Notes under the pieces: generated by a model
Told to the model about the DNA's origin: nothing
Databases searched by the model: none
What the model saw: the letters and a program-made list of their open reading frames with translations, nothing else
Origin: a virus
Reading direction: 5' to 3' (one strand)
DNA length: 60,886 bases
IMG/VR virus record: IMGVR_UViG_3300027851_000031
Coordinates: 1 to 60,886 of that record
Program-made: the position numbers and the translations under genes
In this document: one piece after another, positions 906 to 55,740 of the stretch
Position numbering within the stretch: position 1 is the first letter of the stretch
How the letters are laid out: every line of letters starts with the position of its first letter

Positions 906-1250
906 TCAAGAAGTGAGTTTTTGGGCCTCCACTGCGATGTAGCGTTGGTCCTTCCCGCTCCACTGAAGGAGGGAGACGCGGCCCCCGTTCGCGGCTGCGG
1001 CCACCGTGACGGCGAAGCCGATGAGGACCGGATTGCCCACCAGCAGGAGGTGGTCCCCTTCCCGGTAGTCCTTCAGCTTCTCCCGCAGCTCCTGAATGAT
1101 CGGTTCCGGGCGGAAGGGCGCGGCGGTTGGGCTGAGCAGATACACCAGCTCACCGAACTCCCCCGCCGGGGTTAGATCAAATTTGGGCTCGAACCGCTGC
1201 TTGTCGCGGTCCCAACGGTGTTGATTCTGTACAACAAACACTTTACTCAT
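906..1250 (-). CDS. Conserved phage protein, unknown function
   Basis: The protein is 114 residues if the ATG at 1250 is used; an ATG two codons earlier is also open. The nearer ATG forms an ATGA overlap with the stop of the helicase gene and is preceded by AAGGA at good spacing, so I chose it. The sequence alternates strands and helices, with a hydrophobic HLLLVGNPVLIGFAVTVAAAA segment that looks like a buried core, not a membrane helix. Similar proteins accompany helicase genes in other phages. Coupling to the helicase suggests a DNA-metabolism role, but nothing catalytic is visible. Confidence 0.7.
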   Translation of the reverse strand: MSKVFVVQNQHRWDRDKQRFEPKFDLTPAGEFGELVYLLSPTAAPFRPEPIIQELREKLKDYREGDHLLLVGNPVLIGFAVTVAAAANGGRVSLLQWSGKDQRYIAVEAQKLTS

Positions 1251-2962
1251 AGCCATTCCTTCAGGCGGTCGCCAGTGATCTGGGACGCCACATTGAACTT
1301 GTTTCTCAAGGCTTCGACAACCTTCTCATCCACGGAGTCCTCCGCCACCAGGTCGATGTACAGCACGCTGTTGTCCTGACCGATGCGGTGGGCGCGGTCC
1401 TCCGATTGTAGGCGGTCGATCAACTTGAAGCTGTTGGAATAATAAATGACGGTCTTGGCGGCAGTCAATGTCAGGCCCGTAGCCCCGGCGGCGGGGTTGC
1501 CCACGAACACCTTGGCCTGCTCCTCCGGCGGGACGGCTTCCCGCCCAATCACCTGCGCTCCGTCATACAGCGTCCGCTCCCCTTGGAACAGGGCTTTGGC
1601 CTCCGCCCGTTCGTCATCGTTCACCTGGCCGTCATAGCGGACGGCGCGGATGCCCCGGCGGCGCAGCTCCTCCAGGATGAGCGTGATGTCCAGCTGGAAC
1701 CGGGCCCAGACAATAACCTTGTGCTGCGCTTCTTCAACCAGGTCGCAAAGCAGCTCCCGGCGGCGGTTCGTCCCCGGGATGACGTACATGGGCTCACTTT
1801 CATCGTCCGTGGGCAGATACCCACAGGTGATCTGCTGAAGGCGGAGGAGCCGGGTCATGGCCAGCGCGGCGATGACGGGGGTGGTGCCGTTCTGCCCAAG
1901 GTCCGGAGTGTCCGCGCAGTCGGGGCACGGGTAGATGTAGCCGTCCACCTCCAACTCCCGCTTGCCGTGACAAGTCGGGCAGGCGTCCTCCAGCGGCAGG
2001 GAACCCTGAAGGGCGGCGGCTTCCTTCTCCGCTCCGCCCAGCTCAAGCCAGACGATGAATTCATCCTTCATCTGGCGGTACAGCTTCCGCTGCTCCTCCG
2101 TCATCGGGAACGGGCGCTTGCTGTACAGCTTGGGCGGGAGGTCCAGCACGTCATCCTTCGTCACGCGGGAGGAGACGGGCTGCAGGAGGGCGTTCAGTTC
2201 GTCCAGGCGGCGGTAGCCCTTGAGCACGTCCACGTATGAGCCGTCACTGTCCACCCAGCGTTGCTTCACCGGGTCGAAGGAGCGGGTGACGTTCGGGTTC
2301 CAGACCTTCTCGAACACCCCGAAGTGGGCCTTGAACTCCGTGAAGGTGCCCAACCCGGCCTTCTTCCAGTAGTCGTCATACAGGAACTTGATCTGGCTGT
2401 AGGCGTCGAAGGGACCCTGCGCAATCGGGGTCCCGGTCAGGATGCGTCTGAAGGGGGCGTACTTCGCGGAGCGGAGGATGGACTTGGTGCGCTCCGCCGT
2501 TGGGGTCTTGATGTAGTGGGCCTCATCCAGGACGTACAGGAGGCGGCGCTTGTCGAAGAAGTCGATCAGCGCACGCTTCCCGGCGGCGGTTGTGAAGGCG
2601 TCATAGCTGATGGTCAGCCACGCGAAGCCCTTGTGCTCAATGACGGCCTTGACCGCCTGCTTGTGCCACTTCGTGTCCGCCCGGGGGGACTGGTAATGGA
2701 AGGCGCGGACGTGCCCAATCACCTCGTCCGGTATGTGATCCGGGATTTCCTTCTCAGTCCAGTTGCGGTGCACCCCGTTCGGTGCGACCACCAGCACCCC
2801 GTCGATGAGGCCCCGGCGCCACAGCCAGCAGGCGGTGTCGATGGTCAGCTTGGACTTCCCGGTGCCCTGTTCCCAGAAGATGCCCCGGGCGATTTCCTCC
2901 CGGCTGCGCTCCCACTCCTCCTTCTGGTGGTTGAAGGGGGCGGTCTTGAACTGATATTCCAC
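1247..2962 (-). CDS. SNF2/superfamily II DNA helicase-ATPase
   Basis: This 571-residue protein has the full helicase core. GTGKS at 33-37 is the Walker A motif, DEAH at 146-149 the Walker B, and LTGTP at about 175 is motif III. A C-terminal helicase lobe ends with the SNF2 signature DRAHRIGQ. A zinc-binding insert with two CxxC pairs (CPTC and CPDC) lies in the middle. Such phage proteins are thought to remodel replication or recombination intermediates. I placed the start at a GTG (2962) because AAAAGGAGT precedes it at normal spacing; the reading frame stays open 27 codons further upstream without a comparable site. It is driven by the promoter at 3005-3034. Confidence 0.9.
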   Translation of the reverse strand: MEYQFKTAPFNHQKEEWERSREEIARGIFWEQGTGKSKLTIDTACWLWRRGLIDGVLVVAPNGVHRNWTEKEIPDHIPDEVIGHVRAFHYQSPRADTKWHKQAVKAVIEHKGFAWLTISYDAFTTAAGKRALIDFFDKRRLLYVLDEAHYIKTPTAERTKSILRSAKYAPFRRILTGTPIAQGPFDAYSQIKFLYDDYWKKAGLGTFTEFKAHFGVFEKVWNPNVTRSFDPVKQRWVDSDGSYVDVLKGYRRLDELNALLQPVSSRVTKDDVLDLPPKLYSKRPFPMTEEQRKLYRQMKDEFIVWLELGGAEKEAAALQGSLPLEDACPTCHGKRELEVDGYIYPCPDCADTPDLGQNGTTPVIAALAMTRLLRLQQITCGYLPTDDESEPMYVIPGTNRRRELLCDLVEEAQHKVIVWARFQLDITLILEELRRRGIRAVRYDGQVNDDERAEAKALFQGERTLYDGAQVIGREAVPPEEQAKVFVGNPAAGATGLTLTAAKTVIYYSNSFKLIDRLQSEDRAHRIGQDNSVLYIDLVAEDSVDEKVVEALRNKFNVASQITGDRLKEWL

Positions 2963-3004
2963 GCGTGGACTCCTTTTCTGAATGCGTTTCGGTTCGGCTG
3001 AAGA

Positions 3005-3034
3005 AGTATAGCCCGGGGAGACTTCCGAGGGAAG
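3005..3034 (-). promoter_or_regulatory. Phage-type promoter (P3)
   Basis: On the minus strand CTTCCC is followed by 18 bases and TATACT, then CTTCTTC. It sits between the iteron-bearing element at 3045-3357 and the SNF2-type helicase gene, and would start the last operon before the genome join. Confidence 0.65.
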
Positions 3035-3044
3035 CCCGAACACT

Positions 3045-3357
3045 TGCGCTTACCTTACGCCCAGAAACACAGCGTTGCGCTTACCTTCGACCAGTCAGTT
3101 TCTTGTAAAGGTAAGCGCACAGAAGTTCCATAAAATCATAGACTTATATATATTTATTATTATTATTACTTAACTTACTTACCTTACTTACCTTGAAAGC
3201 CCCAGGAGGATTTCCCTGGGCCTCCCGCCGATTTATCGGGCGAACCGCATTTCAAGGTAAGTATCCCAAGTAAGGTAAGTAATTCCCACGGGGGCTGGAA
3301 CTTACGTGCGCTTGGGATAGCTCCGAAGGTAAGCGCACGCGGTCGAAGGTAAGCGCA
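3045..3357. repeat. Noncoding iteron and dyad element, copy 1 (possible origin or control region)
   Basis: This stretch has no gene. It contains five exact copies of AAGGTAAGCGCA: 3045-3056 and 3076-3087 in one orientation, and 3108-3119, 3326-3337 and 3346-3357 in the other. In between is an AT-rich run with TATATATATT and TTATTATTATTATT, then repeated ACTTACCTT units. The units at 3185-3198 are perfectly inverted at 3250-3263 around a hairpin (CCCAGG/CCTGGG). A clearly related element lies at 30471-30796, including a block of about 90 bases that is nearly identical. Iterons, AT-rich DNA and dyads are features of replication origins, but a repressor-binding or termination region would also fit. 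Confidence 0.75.
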
Positions 3358-3359
3358 GC

Positions 3360-3722
3360 TCAGGGGGCCTTGCTCAGAAACTCCTTCAGGCCCAGGAGGA
3401 CCAGCGTGCCTAGGCCCGAGAGGAAGATGCCGAGGAGGGCCACGGTGCCCTTCTTCTTCAGGTCCTCCCCGGACTCCCGCCATTGACGAAGGTGCTGGAA
3501 GTCCCGCTGCATCGCCAGCGGGTCGGACATGTCAATGCCCATCTGGATCAGGGTCTGTCGGACGGCTTCGGCCACCATGTGACTCACTTCGTCCGGGGTC
3601 AGCGTCACCTTTCGGGCGGCGGCTTCAGCGGCGCGTTCCGCTGCTTCTTCAACTTCGGCTTTGGCTGCACGTGTCGCGGCGGACACGGCCAGCTCCTCGA
3701 TTTCCTTGGGCGTAAGGGACAT
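3360..3722 (-). CDS. Small membrane-anchored protein at the end of the tail operon
   Basis: This 120-residue protein has a long helical, charged N-terminal part (Ala/Glu-rich, residues 5-45), a conserved-looking middle around FQHLRQWRESGEDLKKKG, and one C-terminal membrane segment (GTVALLGIFLSGLGTLVLLGL). The topology fits a membrane-anchored coiled coil. Similar proteins sit next to tail-fibre genes in other siphophages and are sometimes labelled holin-like, but the likely holin here is at 19970. The start at 3722 has GGAG eight bases upstream. It follows a hairpin and a promoter-like sequence at 3755-3783, so it may be transcribed separately. Confidence 0.7.
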   Translation of the reverse strand: MSLTPKEIEELAVSAATRAAKAEVEEAAERAAEAAARKVTLTPDEVSHMVAEAVRQTLIQMGIDMSDPLAMQRDFQHLRQWRESGEDLKKKGTVALLGIFLSGLGTLVLLGLKEFLSKAP

Positions 3723-28256: not shown

Positions 28257-29789
28257 TTACATCTCCGATTGCTTGACACCACGCAGCTTCTTGCGTACAC
28301 GGTAGCGCATCGCGTCCCCGATGTGGTCCTCAGCGTCCGTGTCCACGTCATCCAGGTCCTTGTCGTCCCGGGGGAGCACGGGCAGCGTCTCCAGGGTCTG
28401 CTGACACCAGTCGAAGATGAACATGCCGGGCGTCTCCCGAAGTCCGCCCCCGGGCGGAGGACAGGCCCCCTTCAGCATCTTGCGTATCTGCTCCCAACCT
28501 TGCTTCCGGGAGCCCGGACCCTTGTCAGCGGGCGTCCAGCGCACGCCCTTCTTCTCCATGTCCACGGCGATGCTGTTGCCGTTCTCCACGTCATAGATGG
28601 CGGAGTCAGCGGGGCCGGGACGGACGCGGGCCGTCAGGTCCCAGTCCTCCTCCCGGTCCTTCACGCCCTGGGCGACATCGCTGGCCAGCATCCGCACACC
28701 TTCGTTGCGCGTTCCGTTCCAGCCATACCACTCCTGGATCAGGTACAGATCGCCCTTCACCCGCCCGTACACGCGGCCCTGGTACTCGAACGGCTCACCG
28801 TTGGACTCCGCCCACCACAGGACGGCGAAGGGCTTGGAGCTGCCCCAGTCGAAGCTGCGGTCAATCTTCCACCGCTTCGGGATGAGGTGGAGCGGGACGG
28901 ACGGAACCACGTGGACTTCGCCCCGCCACAGGTCATCGAACATGCCCCCGGCGATGATGTCCCAGGAACCGTGGAGCCAGGCTGCGAGTTCGGAGGGGTT
29001 CCGGGCGGCGGCTCGAATCTTGCTGATATACTCCGGGTCAGCGTGGAGCAGGATTTGGTTCTCATAGATGGAACCGTGGATGGCGACACGCGGCGGCTCC
29101 CGCTCCCCGTCTCGCATCGCGTCCGTGATCACCTTGCCCCGGTAGTGCGGAAGGCGGAACCGGGACTTGACCCAGTTGTGCCCAGGCCCGTAGGGGTTGG
29201 TGGTTGCGCGGTAGCAGCGGGGCATCCCGGGCTTCGTGGAGCGGCAGCACGACATCATGACCGTGTAGCACTTGTCATCCGCCCAGTTGCAGAGTTCTTC
29301 CCAGCCAATCCACGGGTATGCGTGGCCGTGGTAGTTCCAATAATCGTCCGGGGACTTCATGTGGCGCAGCAGCAGCTCCTCCCCGCCGGGGAAGGTCCAC
29401 TTGTGCTCCACCTTGTTGTAGCGGGCCATCGGGAAAATCTTGCGGAACCACTTGGTGGTTTTGTTGATCACGTCCGACAACTGCGGGTACGTCTGACGGA
29501 ACAGGATGCCCCGCCATTCGCTCCCGTAACCCTTCCCCACGTGCTGGAGGAAGTCCATCAGCAAGCAATCGGTCTTGCCCGGTCCCCGCGTCCCCTCATA
29601 CAGGACCTCGAAGATGGGCGTGGCCTGGAGGAAGGCCAGCTGGCTCCCGTACTGCGGACACCAGGTGGCTTCGTGCTCCTTGCCCGTGGTCGGGTCCACG
29701 TAGAACCCGCGCAGCTCCCCCTTGTCCACCTCACGCCACTCAATCGGGTAGTCCGGACGGGCCGGGACGGCGACAATGGGGGCGTTCAT
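28257..29789 (-). CDS. terL: Terminase large subunit
   Basis: The product has 510 residues. GTRGPGKTD near residue 67 is the Walker A motif and WIGWEEL, about residue 165, the Walker B with the catalytic Glu. The coupling motif and a C-terminal nuclease domain follow, with the first acidic residue in DRSFDWGSSKPF. The enzyme cuts concatemers and drives DNA into the procapsid through the portal. The start overlaps the small subunit stop by four bases. Confidence 0.93.
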   Translation of the reverse strand: MNAPIVAVPARPDYPIEWREVDKGELRGFYVDPTTGKEHEATWCPQYGSQLAFLQATPIFEVLYEGTRGPGKTDCLLMDFLQHVGKGYGSEWRGILFRQTYPQLSDVINKTTKWFRKIFPMARYNKVEHKWTFPGGEELLLRHMKSPDDYWNYHGHAYPWIGWEELCNWADDKCYTVMMSCCRSTKPGMPRCYRATTNPYGPGHNWVKSRFRLPHYRGKVITDAMRDGEREPPRVAIHGSIYENQILLHADPEYISKIRAAARNPSELAAWLHGSWDIIAGGMFDDLWRGEVHVVPSVPLHLIPKRWKIDRSFDWGSSKPFAVLWWAESNGEPFEYQGRVYGRVKGDLYLIQEWYGWNGTRNEGVRMLASDVAQGVKDREEDWDLTARVRPGPADSAIYDVENGNSIAVDMEKKGVRWTPADKGPGSRKQGWEQIRKMLKGACPPPGGGLRETPGMFIFDWCQQTLETLPVLPRDDKDLDDVDTDAEDHIGDAMRYRVRKKLRGVKQSEM

Positions 29790-30307
29790 TTCTTCTCCCC
29801 CTCCGGACGCCCGTGCGTCCCCTTCGCCAACTCACCGAACTTCTCCTGCCACTGGCTCAAGCCGTCCGGAGACGCGGGAATGATCAGGACCCCGGCCCCG
29901 GCGTTGCTGTAGGCTCCGCCCCCGGACAGGTCCTTGTCCTTGAACTCACCCCGGTTGGCGCGGAGAAGCATGGCCATGAGGCTGTCGCTGTACACCTGCT
30001 CATAGGCCACGATTTCGTCCTTGAACTTCCCGCCCAGGATCGGCTTGGAGGTTCCCTTGGTGGCGCGGCGGACGGCTTCCGCCACCAGCACTTCGTCCAC
30101 CCACATCTGCTTCGCAATCTCGCAGGCCTCATCGAACTCCGGGTCAACCTTCCGGTGCTTCGAGACGGTCCCCGGCTCGATGCCCACCAGTTCGGCAGCG
30201 CGGTACACAAGGCCCGTCTGGCGCAGGTGGTGCAGGTATTGAATTTTGCGCTCCTCCGTGAACTCCACGGGGGGCTTCGGCTTCATCTTCTGAATCGGTT
30301 TGGACAT
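29786..30307 (-). CDS. terS: Terminase small subunit
   Basis: I placed the start at ATG 30307 (173 residues) because AAGGAGGACGTG precedes it; the frame is open further upstream. Residues 15-80 form a predicted HTH region (LHHLRQTGLVYRAAELVGIEPGTVSKHRKVDPEFD) typical of small terminase DNA-binding domains. The rest is helical, with a flexible C-terminus. It recognises the packaging site and recruits the large subunit. It is the first gene of the structural operon behind the promoter at 30371-30400. Confidence 0.87.
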   Translation of the reverse strand: MSKPIQKMKPKPPVEFTEERKIQYLHHLRQTGLVYRAAELVGIEPGTVSKHRKVDPEFDEACEIAKQMWVDEVLVAEAVRRATKGTSKPILGGKFKDEIVAYEQVYSDSLMAMLLRANRGEFKDKDLSGGGAYSNAGAGVLIIPASPDGLSQWQEKFGELAKGTHGRPEGEKK

Positions 30308-30370
30308 CACGTCCTCCTTCGACATGTCTGAACGTCCCGGGGCCTCACGCCCAGGGACAATGTTGACAAG

Positions 30371-30400
30371 AGTATAGCGGGAGGGTGTGTTCAGGACAAG
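30371..30400 (-). promoter_or_regulatory. Promoter of the structural operon (P1)
   Basis: On the minus strand CTTGTC/TTGTCC precedes TATACT by 18 or 17 bases. It lies about 65 bases upstream of the small terminase start and downstream of the repeat element at 30471-30796. Confidence 0.6.
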
Positions 30401-30470
30401 GCGGCGGTGTCTCGCCCGCGAATACAAGATTTCAGGCAGCGCGGCGGTCTGCCGATGCCCAAGGAGGCAC

Positions 30471-30796
30471 TGCGCTTACCTTCCGCTTGGTTTGACCAGT
30501 TTTTACTTACCTTCACACAGTCAAAATCTTGTAAAGGTAAGCGCACAAAAAGTCCATAAAATCAACCCTTTATATATATTTATTATTATTATTACTTAAC
30601 TTACTTACCTTACTTACCTTGAATTTGCCGGAGGACTTCTGCTGGGCCTCCGGTCGATTTGTCGGGCGAAGTTCTTTTCAACCCAAGTAACCCAAGTAAG
30701 GTAAGTAATAATAATAAAAGCCCAAGCGGATCAAGGACTTACGTGCGCTTACCTTCATTCCTGAAAATCTGGTAACCCCAAGCGCACGCTTACCTT
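30471..30796. repeat. Noncoding iteron and dyad element, copy 2 (possible origin or control region)
   Basis: This gene-free stretch is the partner of 3045-3357. It has three exact AAGGTAAGCGCA 12-mers, at 30471-30482, 30534-30545 and 30744-30755, and a variant at 30785-30796. It shares the block with CATAAAATC, ATATATATT, TTATTATTATTATT and repeated ACTTACCTT units. A hairpin CCGGAGG/CCTCCGG occupies the place of the CCCAGG hairpin in copy 1; the loop sequences differ while the arms are conserved, as in a structured element. It separates the Cas4-like nuclease gene from the structural operon. Confidence 0.75.
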
Positions 30797-31437
30797 CAGA
30801 ACAGGGGCGCGGGGCGGGCATCCCGGGACGTGTTGAACCGGCATTCCAGTACGGGGCACCGGGGACAGGCGGGGTTGCCACGTTGTGACCAGTAGCCTTC
30901 GGCCTCCGCCCGTGCGATTTCGCCCACCGTGGTCTCGAACTCCGTGCGCAGTGCTTCGAGGTCCGCCCGGAGGAACTTGTGCGTGGTGATCTCCCCGGTG
31001 GACAGCCAGACGTACTTGCCCACCACTTCGTCCACGCGGGGGAAGTTCTCGAACGTGAGCAGGGCGTACATCTTCAGTTGGTCCGGGTCCGCGTGGGGCT
31101 TGCCGGTTTTCCAGTCCACCACCAGTGCGGCGCGTTCCGCGATGAGGGCCACGTCCAGTTTGCCCGCGAAGTCTCCGGCCCGCAGTTCCTCCTCCACGCG
31201 CATCGGATCGCTGCGTTGGGCAATCCGTTCGAGTTGGGCGCAGAGGCGTTCCGCGTCCGTCAGCTCCGGGGGCAGCGGGCTCCCCTTCTTCAGGCGGTCC
31301 TTCAGCTGGGCGTGGACGCGGACGCCCCGGCGGGCTTCCTCCGTCTCCTCCATCGTCACGTCCCGGGCGATGCGCAGCCGGAAGTACAGGTGCGGGCACT
31401 GGCGGAACTGTTGGAGGGAGGAGAAGGAGTGCGTCAT
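30796..31437 (-). CDS. Cas4/RecB-like PD-(D/E)XK exonuclease
   Basis: The 213-residue protein has a nuclease core: His42, Asp95 in GKLDVALI and VVDWKTGK with Asp108 and Lys110. It has one N-terminal cysteine (QCPHLYF, Cys14) and three near the C-terminus (CPRCPVLEC), the layout of a 4Fe-4S cluster in Cas4/AddB-type enzymes. There is no CRISPR array here, so a role in phage recombination or end processing is likely. It overlaps the upstream gene by four bases, and its end abuts the repeat element. Confidence 0.87.
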   Translation of the reverse strand: MTHSFSSLQQFRQCPHLYFRLRIARDVTMEETEEARRGVRVHAQLKDRLKKGSPLPPELTDAERLCAQLERIAQRSDPMRVEEELRAGDFAGKLDVALIAERAALVVDWKTGKPHADPDQLKMYALLTFENFPRVDEVVGKYVWLSTGEITTHKFLRADLEALRTEFETTVGEIARAEAEGYWSQRGNPACPRCPVLECRFNTSRDARPAPLF

Positions 31438-42013: not shown

Positions 42014-44455
42014 TCAGAACGGCGGCGCGTCCTTCTTGGGCGGTTCGCTCAGACTTTCCTGAAGCGGGTCCACCCGGGGCCAGTCGAAGGGTCCGCCCAT
42101 CTGCGCGTCCCAATACGCCCGGACCTCCGACAAGGAGGGGAGGTGGTACACATATGCCCGCTTCTTGATCATGACCTCGAAGCCGTGTTCATTCACCCAG
42201 GGCACGTCCACCATCTCCTGCTTCGACTTCGGCCACCCCGGCGGGAAGGAGCGGGCCAGGAACTTGCCGAAGCTGGTCTGGCTCAGGCGGAAGTTCCGGC
42301 CTTGGTCCCGGAGGTCGTTGATGTAGTCGTTGTACAGGCTTTCCTTCAGCACGCGGCCCTTCCAGTCCTGGTCGGTCTTGAGCATCCGGCCTTCCCACAG
42401 CTTCTCATACATCCACTGGACTTCCGGGGCCATGCTCATGATCTTCTGGTCCTGCAGCGCGGCGGTCTGCGGCACCTGACGGACCTCGAAGGCGCTGAGG
42501 TCATAGGTCATCAGGTAGTGCAACAAGTTCTCCAGGCCACCGTCATCCAGGTCATCCTTGATGGCCTTGAAATAGCCGTGATCCTGCTTCTTCCCGTCCC
42601 CCACCTCCATGACAAAGAAGCGGCGCTCATCCAGACCGGCGGGCACCACCCAGTCCTCGTTCGAGGCCAGGACCAGGTGGACGTAGTTGGGCGCGGCTTC
42701 GGCGTCCACGCCCTTCCCTTCGATGACCAGGTGCTCCTCCGTGATCAGGGTCTTGAGCACGCTTTCGTGCTTCTTGTCCCCGGCGAAGAATGCCTCATCA
42801 CCGAACAGCAGGACCGTATCGCGGAGGTGGGCGTTGAAGGAGCCCACCAGGTGCTTCGAGTCCGACACCTGAAGGAAGTGACGCCCAAACATCGCCCCGA
42901 GAATCTTGGCGAAGAAGGACTTGCCAGTGCCCCGCTTCCCGCGAAGGACCACGGCCACTTCCCCCGGGCCGTCCGGGTGTTGGATCATCCGGGCCATCCA
43001 GCCCACCAGGTAGTTGTAGTGCTCCGGGTTTCCCGAGCACACGTTGTCGCGCACGTGGAGGAGGAAGGATTCATGCTTGCGGCCCGGCAGGGAGTTGCAC
43101 GCGAAGCCCCGCCACAGGTTGTAGGCGTCCTCCGTCTCCCGGCCCGGGGCGAACAGAATTGTCTCATACTGTCGGCGCTGAGGGTGATCAATCCAGAAGG
43201 CACCAGCGGCCTTCTCAATCGGGCGTCCGTCCTCCGAGTGCCCAACCACCACCTTGATGTGGCGGTAGCGGTTGCGGAAGTCCTCGAAGGACTGCTTGCT
43301 GATTTTGGTCCGGTTCAGGGACAGGTCCATCACCTCCGATATGATGCGGCACTTCCCACCAATGTCGCTGATGACTGCGTGCTTCTCGTTGAGCTTGCGC
43401 AGCATCGGGTCAATCGCTTCCTCCTTCGCCCGTTCGATCTGGCGCAGGGCGTAGGCTTCCCAGTTCGGCTTGTCTCTGACGCTGGTGGCAATCTCGTTGG
43501 AGCCCGTGATCACCGCAAAGATCATCTCATCAGGAACCTCCGCCCGGACCAGATCGCAGCAGACCTTGAACAAGGCTTCGGAGCGGGAGGGGTACTTGGT
43601 CGGGTCCAGCGGGTCCTGGCCCGTGGCGATGAGGGCCAGGCAGTGATCGCTGATGGCCTTGCCGTGTTCGTTCGCCCAGTCCTTCAGCTCCTCCGTCCCG
43701 ATGTCCGGGACGTTGCCTGTGATCTTCACCTTCGGGCGTCCGCCCGCCAGTCCGGGCTCCGACATCTGGACGCGGGGCGCGGCGGTGAATTGCTCAATCG
43801 GGTAGCTGACGTCAGTCCACTCAACCAGCGTGGCCAGCGCGGGCCAGCGGCCCTTCTTGCGCTTCTTCGCGGTCGGCATGTTGATCGTGCCCGGAAGGCG
43901 CATGATGCGGTCCACGTTGTGGCAGTGGTCCGCTTGAAAAACCTTCTCCAGCTGGATGTTGAAGGCTTCCAACTCCTGGGCCTTGGTGATGCTCCCGTTG
44001 ATCTCCAGACGTTCGGACGGGGACAGCCTCCAGAAGCCCTGGAAGCCTCCGCCCGAGTCAACGATGACGGTGGGCTTGGGCGTGTACTCCTTCAGCATCC
44101 GGAGGGCGCGGGCACGCTCCTCCTCGAAGTCCTCCCCGGCGCGGGGGTCGATGTCAACGTGGAGCCAGGACAGGCGGGCAATGTCCTCCTTGCTGGCCTT
44201 CACCGTCATCGACCGGCGGACCGGGTTGACGTGGAAGTACACGTTGTTTTTGCCCTGGTTGGACTCAATCCATTCAGCGGCTTCTCGCCAGGCGTCCGGT
44301 TGGAAGGTTCTGGTGTCGGTCTTGCCGTCCGGGATGATGGACGTGAGAACCCAGGGACCTTCTGGGCACCACCGCTTCAGGAAGCGGACGGCGGCTTGCG
44401 TGTCGTGCTCCGGAAGGGGGCGCGGCTTGGTGAACTCCTCCCCAAAACGGTTCAT
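42014..44455 (-). CDS. Primase-helicase (RepB-like primase + DUF5906 helicase)
   Basis: The protein is 813 residues. The N-terminal 220 residues include LSWLHVDIDPRAGEDFEEE and TVIVDSGGGFQGFW, and later NVDRIMRLPGTINMP, matching RepB-like/AEP primases of the NrS-1 type. The C-terminal part, about 490-750, is a superfamily III-like helicase with LRGKRGTGKSFFAK (Walker A), LLFGDEAFF (Walker B) and a sensor LVLASNEDW. The enzyme would unwind and prime the phage DNA. ATG 44455 overlaps the HTH gene stop. No DnaB-type helicase is otherwise present. Confidence 0.88.
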   Translation of the reverse strand: MNRFGEEFTKPRPLPEHDTQAAVRFLKRWCPEGPWVLTSIIPDGKTDTRTFQPDAWREAAEWIESNQGKNNVYFHVNPVRRSMTVKASKEDIARLSWLHVDIDPRAGEDFEEERARALRMLKEYTPKPTVIVDSGGGFQGFWRLSPSERLEINGSITKAQELEAFNIQLEKVFQADHCHNVDRIMRLPGTINMPTAKKRKKGRWPALATLVEWTDVSYPIEQFTAAPRVQMSEPGLAGGRPKVKITGNVPDIGTEELKDWANEHGKAISDHCLALIATGQDPLDPTKYPSRSEALFKVCCDLVRAEVPDEMIFAVITGSNEIATSVRDKPNWEAYALRQIERAKEEAIDPMLRKLNEKHAVISDIGGKCRIISEVMDLSLNRTKISKQSFEDFRNRYRHIKVVVGHSEDGRPIEKAAGAFWIDHPQRRQYETILFAPGRETEDAYNLWRGFACNSLPGRKHESFLLHVRDNVCSGNPEHYNYLVGWMARMIQHPDGPGEVAVVLRGKRGTGKSFFAKILGAMFGRHFLQVSDSKHLVGSFNAHLRDTVLLFGDEAFFAGDKKHESVLKTLITEEHLVIEGKGVDAEAAPNYVHLVLASNEDWVVPAGLDERRFFVMEVGDGKKQDHGYFKAIKDDLDDGGLENLLHYLMTYDLSAFEVRQVPQTAALQDQKIMSMAPEVQWMYEKLWEGRMLKTDQDWKGRVLKESLYNDYINDLRDQGRNFRLSQTSFGKFLARSFPPGWPKSKQEMVDVPWVNEHGFEVMIKKRAYVYHLPSLSEVRAYWDAQMGGPFDWPRVDPLQESLSEPPKKDAPPF

Positions 44456-44781
44456 GCGTTGGCTCCCCAATACTCAACAAGCCGGTCCACGGGGGCCTTG
44501 CCGTCCTCCATCATGATCACCCACAGGCGGGTCAGCCCAAGGGCAGCGGCGATTTCGCGCTGGGTCTTGCCCGAGCGGCGGCGCTTCAGATAGCAAACCT
44601 CATGCGGCTTCAGTTCGCCCACCCCCACCTCCGGGGTATCGTCCCGGCGGTCCGCTTCCCACTCCCGGTACTTGTCCGGGTGGACCTTCCACTCACCAGC
44701 GGCCAGGACCTGATTCAGGCCCCGGCGGCGGCGCTCAACCAGGAGGGCTTCCCCCCGGCTCAACGTCAGTTCTGCAGCCAT
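44452..44781 (-). CDS. HTH DNA-binding protein next to the primase gene
   Basis: The 109-residue product has two helix-turn-helix-like segments: LSRGEALLVERRRRGLNQVLAA near the N-terminus and RRRSGKTQREIAAALGLTRLWVIMMEDGK near residue 65. The second resembles Xre-type repressors. The linker (GEWKVHPDKYREWEADRR) is acidic and aromatic. A role in controlling replication-gene expression or origin recognition is plausible. It overlaps the primase start and the nuclease stop. Confidence 0.72.
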   Translation of the reverse strand: MAAELTLSRGEALLVERRRRGLNQVLAAGEWKVHPDKYREWEADRRDDTPEVGVGELKPHEVCYLKRRRSGKTQREIAAALGLTRLWVIMMEDGKAPVDRLVEYWGANA

Positions 44782-54025: not shown

Positions 54026-54865
54026 TCAGTCTCCGATGTTCCAGAACACGATGGGCTTGCCCGCCAGCGGTTCGAGGTTCTCCGGCTTCTGGAGCCAGTT
54101 CCACGCCTTCTGGTCATAGTAGGGGTTGCACGGGAACGGAACGGAGACGCTGCTGGGCGCGGCGTCCGCGTAGTTGTAGCCCTCATCCACGAAGCGGACA
54201 CGCTCCGTCAGCTGAATCCCGGCGGCACGTTCGATGTAGGCGCGGGTGGAGTCCTGACTGCGGCTGTAGCCCATGTTCAGAATGACGTCATACCCGTCCA
54301 GGATACCGGCCTGCTTGAAGCCCAGGAGGACCCCGGCGGCAACCGTCCCGGAGCTGATGGACAGAATCAGGGTGCCTTCGCCCGGGAGGTCCGGAGCGGT
54401 GCGCAGGGCTTCCGCAGCGTTCTCCGTGATCGACTCCGGCAGCTTCAGGGCGTTGGGCATCAAGTACCCGTTCGCATAGCCGTCCATCAGCCGCTTGCGC
54501 GCTCCGTGGTACAGCACGGCGGAGCGGCCCGCCGGAAGGTCCACCAGGTCCGCCCCCAGTTGGCGGGCACGTTGCTGCTGGATGCGCGGGGCGTCCGCGT
54601 TCCCGTCCTTCTTGTAGCGGGGCCAGAAGTCCACGCACTTGCGTCCGAGTTGGTTGCAGACGTAGGCCACCGCGTGTCCGGCCTTCGAGTGATAGGTGTC
54701 CAGGACCCCGATGACTTGTTCAGGGCGGTTCTTGATGTGGGCCACCACGCCCCGTATCTTGCTGAAGGACGGACCCGGCAGCGGGGCGCAAAGGTCCTCA
54801 CGCTTGACGATGACGGGGACGCCCCGGAGGTTGTGGACTTCGAGCGGGGTGTTGTTGACTATCAT
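54026..54865 (-). CDS. PLP-dependent enzyme, fold type II
   Basis: The protein is 279 residues from ATG 54865, in an ATGA overlap. The PLP lysine is probably Lys36 in [20 protein letters not shown] near residue 160 is the phosphate-binding loop, and [17 protein letters not shown] and the C-terminal region follow the tryptophan-synthase-beta/ACC-deaminase fold. In M6-type phages a PLP enzyme decarboxylates the amino acid attached to thymine, giving an aminoethyl group. A serine or threonine lyase activity is the alternative. Confidence 0.83.
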
Positions 54866-55740
54866 GATTGCTCCTTGGGCATGTGGTGGAGGAAGGCGCG
54901 GGCGGCGGGGCACGAAGCGGCCCAGGGTTCGAGTCCGGTGTTGATCTCCCGGGTGTCGTTCCAGAGGGGGTAGTGTCCATTCATGTGGGATTTCCACTTG
55001 CACAGGACCGTCTCCACCTCCTGGATGTTCACCGGACGGTCGGACAGGGGCGGGGCTTCGAGGTCCGCGAAGTGCCCAATCAGGTACTGCGCCACCCCGT
55101 TCAGGATGACCTCCCGCTTGGGCTTCGCGTTCTCCGGGTACTTGTGGCCCTCCCGGAGCTGCCACAGCATCATCGCGGCCTTCTCCGGGTCCTTGAACAT
55201 GAACACGGCGGCGTTGTCGAAGTCAACCGGGACCTCCATCACGCGGTCCATCATGTCCGCAATCTTGAAGCCAATCCACGGTCCGAAGCCGTTGTGCTCC
55301 TGGGCGCGGTTCGAGACGGTCCGGAAGGGCAGGCGCTCCTCCTCCGTTGCGCGGGCTCCCACGTATAGCACGAAGTTCTCCGGGCGCTCCGCGTACCGCT
55401 TCTGGAGGGACGATACAGCGTTGACCGCAATCGCTGCGCGGAAGTGGCGGCGCTCATGTCCGCGTGGCCAGCGTCCTCCCACGGGGGTTTCCTCCGCGTT
55501 TTCTGCTGCGACCATCATCCAGTGCCAGAAGTCATTGCCCTCCTTCTCACTGAGGAAGGACGCAACGGCGGCGTTGTAGTAACACCAGTATGCGACCATC
55601 CAGCGGCAGAGTTGGGGGATGGAGTAGTCACCGGCCTTCTCCGCCCGGACTAGGGCGGTGTAGATCGGGTCAAGGTCCCCAGAGGTGATCAGGTGTCGCC
55701 CAAAGGACTCGATGTCCAGGCGGGGGTAGTTTCGGCTCAT
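54862..55740 (-). CDS. Amino acid:DNA transferase-like protein (ADDT/aGPT-Pplase type)
   Basis: The protein is 292 residues. The sequence [12 protein letters not shown], then [32 protein letters not shown] and [17 protein letters not shown] resembles putative amino acid:DNA transferases linked with thymine hypermodification. It is proposed to displace the phosphate or pyrophosphate of activated 5-hydroxymethyluracil in DNA with an amino acid such as glycine. It leads the cluster and overlaps the PLP gene start. The name is from recognised sequence features and order; the amino acid cannot be read from sequence. Confidence 0.78.

Follow-up and report, generated by a model that had tools for sequence, protein, structure and literature searches.

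Paired iteron-like elements with easily melted cores as candidate replication origins of a Yuavirus-like phage

Two similar intergenic elements in the genome of a Yuavirus-like phage are probably a pair of replication origins that combine iterons with a DNA unwinding element (DUE), or one origin and, far from it, another replicator of like kind, served by the primase-helicase of the phage. Both lie in the window, the whole 60,886-nucleotide stretch of viral DNA that was analyzed (IMG/VR record IMGVR_UViG_3300027851_000031). Direct observation covers the anatomy and pairing of the elements, their conservation across the family, the extreme instability of their helix, and the fold class to which the primase-helicase belongs. 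From these we infer binding, melting, helicase loading, and initiation at the elements. The original prediction, which dealt with the first element, called it a candidate origin or control locus; the kind of element was right, and comparative evidence favors an origin over control. Three features go beyond that prediction: inner arrays phased at 9 bp, an AT-rich core with the lowest stability in the genome, and conservation of the pair throughout the family. Cumulative GC skew, which had been put forward as a check, shows no turn at the elements; the skew is weak and its extremes lie elsewhere.

Genomic setting

The phage is Yuavirus-like and belongs to the Mesyanzhinovviridae, with ∼81% DNA identity to its Yuavirus relatives over 35% of the first 8 kb. 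Many Yuavirus, Vojvodinavirus, and related phages infect Pseudomonas aeruginosa. One database entry, ON165687 (Sphaerotilus phage SN1), lists Sphaerotilus natans as its host, yet its likeness to the window equals that of the P. aeruginosa Yuaviruses, and the host label may deserve checking.

Copy 1 occupies ∼310 bases (3045..3357) and is gene-free, as predicted; it is intergenic, flanked on one side by the stop codon of a small gene (3360-3722, -) and on the other by the start, likely a GTG near 2966 on the minus strand, of the SNF2-type helicase gene downstream (1247..2968, -). Its sister, copy 2 (30471..30797), is found upstream of the terminase small subunit gene (29786..30331, -; phrog_4044). 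The two copies have the same orientation, bracket the structural gene block, and have in common an identical run of 54 bases spanning the AT core and the left array.

Promoter-like sequences accompany both copies. A -10-like hexamer, TATACT, faces the helicase gene at 3005..3010 (-), as seen in the sequence, and phage LKO4 has a TATA hexamer at the equivalent place of its own copy 1. A promoter of sigma-70-like form, TTGTCC-17-TATACT (30371..30399, -), separates copy 2 from the terminase small subunit gene. Only at copy 2 is there a full sigma-70-like match, the hexamer of copy 1 being preceded by a weak -35. With such hexamers separating each element from the gene downstream, the elements may have a transcriptional role, and it could coexist with a role as origin. 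No intrinsic terminator was found, and no known RNA family matched at the gathering threshold.

Repeat arrays and palindrome

The five exact copies of the 12-mer AAGGTAAGCGCA that had been reported in both orientations are present as outer sites, at 3045..3056 (-), 3076..3087 (-), 3108..3119 (+), 3326..3337 (+), and 3346..3357 (+). When up to one mismatch is allowed, nine matches are found versus 0.14 in shuffles of the window. The shorter core AAGGTAAG occurs nine times in copy 1 and eight times in copy 2 (30475-30796), with an expectation of 0.37 for the whole window. Read from left to right, copy 1 consists of outer sites, an AT-rich stretch, three repeats on the minus strand, a stem-loop region, three repeats on the plus strand, and again outer sites.

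The inner repeats form tandem 9-bp iterons. In copy 1, the left array (3168..3194, -) reads AAGGTAAGT AAGGTAAGT AAGTTAAGT on the minus strand, and the right array (3254..3280, +) reads AAGGTAAGT ATCCCAAGT AAGGTAAGT. Copy 2 likewise has three iterons on the left (30594..30620, -) and three on the right (30680..30706, +; AACCCAAGT AACCCAAGT AAGGTAAGT). Between the arrays lies the block that is best conserved by alignment, CGATTTATCGGGCGAA in copy 1 (3229..3244, +), which recurs with few changes in copy 2 (CGATTTGTCGGGCGAA; 30655..30670, +), LKO4, Bordetella phage MW2, and L147. Across genomes, 9 bp is the best tandem period in 18 of 27 elements versus 51 of 210 control segments, and mean identity at lag 9 is 0.79 in elements versus 0.58 in controls. 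Tandem direct repeats at constant spacing, a hallmark of iteron-type origins, are thus found with a 9-bp period.

A perfect 14-bp inverted repeat (3185-3198/3250-3263) had also been noted in copy 1. It proves to be the inner part of longer arms of 34 nt that are 85% complementary (3165-3198 and 3250-3283), so that the whole is a large imperfect palindrome or stem-loop (3165..3283). When the span that takes in both arrays is folded as single-stranded DNA, the two window elements come out much more stable than shuffles (z -8.4 and -6.3). Corresponding values are -6.6 and -3.2 in the more distant genome G020 and -3.5 and -2.7 in G001, and they are weak for copy 2 of LKO4 and MW2 (-1.5 and -2.1), a 150-nt limit having cut the MW2 arm. 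The central loops alone (z -0.9 and -2.1) are hardly more structured than shuffles; the significance comes from the long arms. The inverted-repeat score is 19 for copy 1 versus a shuffle maximum of 18, and 21 versus 16 for copy 2 (100 shuffles each). The palindrome of copy 1, taken alone, is therefore barely beyond chance for its base composition.

Helical instability of the AT-rich cores

The AT-rich core described for copy 1 was borne out: TTATATATATTTATTATTATTATTA is present, and the stretch as a whole, TATATATATTTATTATTATTATTA, is a TA and TTA microsatellite. Nearest-neighbor stability was scanned in 60-bp windows along nine genomes. The least stable 60 bp of the entire 60.9 kb lie in copy 1 (3130..3189; z 7.3), with a mean nearest-neighbor dG of -0.974 versus a genome mean of -1.555, and form a candidate DUE. 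Second in rank is the candidate DUE of copy 2 (30556..30615; z 6.9), and the third-ranked spot follows at z 4.7. The two least stable 60-bp windows coincide with the two elements in all nine of the closer genomes scanned; in the five genomes that were scored, the elements reach z 5.4-7.3 and the third place at most 4.7. An AT-rich DUE adjoining the repeats, as iteron-type origins have, is thus found in 9/9 genomes as the lowest two windows.

The only match to the integration host factor (IHF) consensus in the window, AATCAACCCTTTA at 30560..30572 (+), adjoins the candidate DUE of copy 2. It was discounted, as 27 of 100 shuffles also hold one match.

The gene at 54862-55740 (-) encodes an amino acid:DNA transferase (Pfam ADDT, E 1.7e-44). 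Judging from this gene, the phage probably hypermodifies thymine, and the T-rich element may therefore carry modified bases.

Conservation across relatives

Exactly two clusters of sites, one by the helicase gene and one by the terminase small subunit gene, are found in the window, G001, G002, G004, G006, and Lydia, the second cluster of G004 being counted as one though listed in two parts. Both elements are also present in LKO4, MW2, and G003. G005 has a clear cluster at the helicase side only, and no clear element pair was found in G019 or G008. The middle letters of the site vary: GGT in the window, GTC in G001 and G006, CCC/CCT in LKO4 and Lydia, and CCT in MW2, G004, and G005. Inner AAGTTAAG repeats are kept in the window, G001, G006, LKO4, Lydia, MW2, and G004; G005 is without them. 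The unit of the AT stretch changes with the genome and the copy, being (TTA)n, (TTC)n, or (GATA)n.

The layout extends to more distant genomes that use other repeats. G020 arranges an unrelated repeat, AGGTAGAGT, in the same way, one place holding 12 copies and the other 9. In G021, clusters of GACTCCCA lie at 26.1 kb and across the contig ends, which on a circular reading amounts to two places. Six genomes with distant primases (G009, G010, G011, G012, G014, and G016), which probably represent the sister subfamily Bradleyvirinae, a label unconfirmed genome by genome, each have exactly two unstable outliers (z 5.8-7.2, with no further spot above 4.4). Of the pair, one always lies directly 3' of the primase-helicase gene; in G010, for example, the gene match spans 29317-30666 and the unstable spot is at 30968. 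Repeats phased at 9 bp, such as GCTTAGATG GCTTAGATG CCTTAGATT, adjoin this spot in several of the six, with weaker periodicity in G012, G014, and G016.

Copy 1 and copy 2 have a likeness of 0.69-0.78 in the window, G001, and G006, versus 0.41-0.63 for same-place copies between genomes; LKO4 and MW2 (0.54 and 0.59) lack this higher within-genome likeness. The likeness in the first three genomes therefore points to exchange between the two copies. By their sequences, it suggests that both are bound by the same factor and sometimes homogenized.

Other sequences touch on the distribution of the element. The pattern TTACTTACCTTACTT matches at least 119 stretches of viral contigs, a 15-mer being too short to inform; among the matches listed, one stretch (L118) is recognizably from a genome used here. 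In the relatives L131 and L138, the place upstream of the helicase match where copy 1 would be expected is taken by another sequence, apparently a coding one. Dense arrays of GTCCGATA and CCAACCCACCC fill two neighboring, non-coding-looking stretches of G019 (L283 14650-15200 and 17600-17950; ∼54.7-58 kb), and their organization is unlike that of the twin elements. In the 175-kb genome PP337211 (Escherichia phage ERS-1), 32 bp of the element center match at 91%, and there are two matching places.

A candidate initiator

The proposed initiator is encoded at 42014..44470 (-) and combines an N-terminal RepB-type archaeo-eukaryotic primase (AEP), a DUF5906/VapE/D5-like superfamily 3 (SF3) helicase, and a predicted C-terminal winged helix. 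In structure comparisons, its model matches the primase-helicases of NrS-1, African swine fever virus, and mpox virus, as well as SaPI PriRep1 and RepB'; Foldseek gives E ∼2e-9 for PriRep1 (7pds) and also matches NrS-1 and D5-type PrimPols. The protein thus resembles self-loading SF3 initiator helicases at the level of fold class.

A predicted double-helix-turn-helix (HTH) protein, a possible regulator, is encoded just upstream (44452..44781, -) by a gene that overlaps the primase-helicase gene. Its Foldseek search gave no significant match, the hits being mostly single-domain HTH proteins; in the G006 version, most of the first HTH seems to be missing.

Both proteins had been suggested as binders of the element, and they fare differently. 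Among the features analyzed here, none pointed to host DnaA, the third binder suggested. Every genome with clear twin arrays also has the primase-helicase. The HTH gene was not found in G020, G021, or G019, although a very divergent version may lie elsewhere; in these three genomes, the neighbor of the primase gene codes for a nuclease-like protein, as read by eye, and G020 and G021 keep clear iteron arrays. The primase-helicase is the better candidate for binding the iterons because no HTH gene was found there. When iteron letters were examined for covariation with candidate DNA-binding proteins (six genomes, 15 pairs), the winged-helix part ranked 27th of 28.

In the proposed mechanism, the C-terminal winged helix would let the primase-helicase bind the outer sites as well as the 9-bp iterons of both inverted arrays, and the HTH protein may assist. 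The AT-rich microsatellite next to the arrays would then melt and the central palindrome might extrude as a stem-loop, allowing SF3 helicase rings to load and the N-terminal primase to begin synthesis.

Alternative roles

The elements could instead be twin operators or leaders, through which a regulator, the double-HTH protein or one from the host, would switch the co-directional blocks starting at the helicase and terminase small subunit genes. Each element does head a gene block, the TATACT hexamers stand between element and gene, and LKO4 has annotated promoters at both loci. The closest family match of the HTH protein includes a transcriptional repressor, and its identity to the protein of G001, where the sites differ, is low (58%, versus a median of 87%). 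However, an operator needs far less than ∼300 bp holding 8-11 sites together with a melting core and a palindrome, the HTH recognition helices show no obvious tracking of the site letters, and the arrays of G020 and G021 persist where the HTH gene was not found. Replication is favored over transcription mainly because one AT-rich, unstable element sits directly 3' of the primase-helicase gene in the sister subfamily, and a purely regulatory function is considered unlikely.

Two further proposals are less probable still. The small terminase might bind the repeats and start headful packaging there, and pac sites are often located near the terminase small subunit gene. Copy 2 is directly upstream of that gene, whose product is among the fastest-evolving proteins (45-51% identity, an unusual divergence next to ∼90% for the large subunit), and these phages are circularly permuted (PMC11946847). 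Yet copy 1, ∼27 kb from the terminase genes, is equally well conserved, packaging has no need of an AT-rich melting core, and sequencing of Ab18-type relatives gave no abnormal read peaks (PMC4482731), all of which makes a packaging role improbable. Borders for recombination or module exchange, or a partition-like site, with no direct part in initiation, would fit same-orientation elements that bracket the structural block and copies that are more alike within the window, G001, and G006 than at the same place across genomes. Such borders would leave the tandem 9-bp arrays, the extreme instability, and the link to the primase-helicase unexplained, and direct repeats used in this way would split the genome; this is the least credible of the proposals, with very little probability assigned to it.

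Relation to known systems

The reading as paired origins finds partial parallels elsewhere. Phage SPP1 of Bacillus has two origins of similar build, with direct repeats, an AT-rich DUE, and one binding protein (PMC6316719). The likeness to its oriL and oriR lies in having two separate, similar elements of this composition in one headful-packaging phage; in the window phage, the two are similar at the level of sequence elements and are candidate origins. SPP1 relies on gp38 together with a helicase loader and a DnaB-type helicase, whereas the candidate here is an AEP-SF3 primase-helicase, the replicative helicase found in the window phage being SF3/D5-like. SPP1 oriL lies inside the initiator gene, unlike the window copies, which are both intergenic, and inverted 9-bp arrays around a palindrome are a feature of the window phage that the consulted part of PMC6316719 does not describe for SPP1.

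In phage-inducible chromosomal islands (PICIs), the ori is the region just 3' of the initiator gene, and two iteron sets flank an AT-rich region (PMC6092414). The window elements resemble those of PICIs and SaPIs in their two iteron sets and AT-rich region (PMC6092414), and the primase-helicase matches PriRep1 by structure. They differ in number, with one element there and two per genome here, in replicon, a satellite versus a phage of ∼60 kb, and in layout, as the AT core in the window is placed beyond the left array, on the side of the outer sites, and a palindrome lies between the arrays. Placement immediately 3' of the initiator gene is not seen in the window; it is seen for one spot in each of the six sister-subfamily genomes.

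The P4 alpha protein is a single primase-helicase that binds iterons at two separate sites, ori and crr, and is in this respect like the arrangement proposed here. The two P4 sites are reportedly unlike in build, and the iteron sequences reportedly differ. The P4 alpha primase is of the Toprim type (PMC4234260), whereas that of the window phage is an AEP.

In plasmid pRN1, a large stem-loop of unconserved sequence is essential for replication and is the likely origin, and AEP-SF3-winged-helix proteins have been suggested to assemble at stem-loops (PMC4234260). Its ORF904 protein, like the window protein, combines AEP primase, SF3 helicase, and winged helix and shares its operon with a small regulator gene (PMC4234260); pRN1 differs in having a single element without iterons. 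As read from sequence, iterons, an AT-rich core, and a stem-loop occur together in each of the two elements of the window phage.

Implications

The element goes unmentioned in the consulted parts of the phage-family papers PMC11946847, PMC8471281, PMC5418858, and PMC4482731, a set outside which the original YuA paper falls. Nor does the literature searched, as far as its consulted parts go, describe where replication starts in Yuavirus, Vojvodinavirus, and their relatives. The layout is retained with iterons as different as AAGGTAAG, AAGTCAAG, AACCTAAG, AGGTAGAG, and GACTCCCA. Tentatively, the elements may define a new class of paired, near-symmetric phage origins with iterons, DUE, and stem-loop, kept alike through intragenomic exchange, in which iterons can be replaced wholesale and a self-loading AEP-SF3 primase-helicase acts without DnaA. 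If the elements are indeed origins, these phages would make it practicable to study in a bacterial virus how origins are selected and melted by SF3 primase-helicases. Large eukaryotic DNA viruses and satellite elements pose the same question. A family-wide origin pair with fast-changing iterons would also inform how initiators and their sites change jointly.
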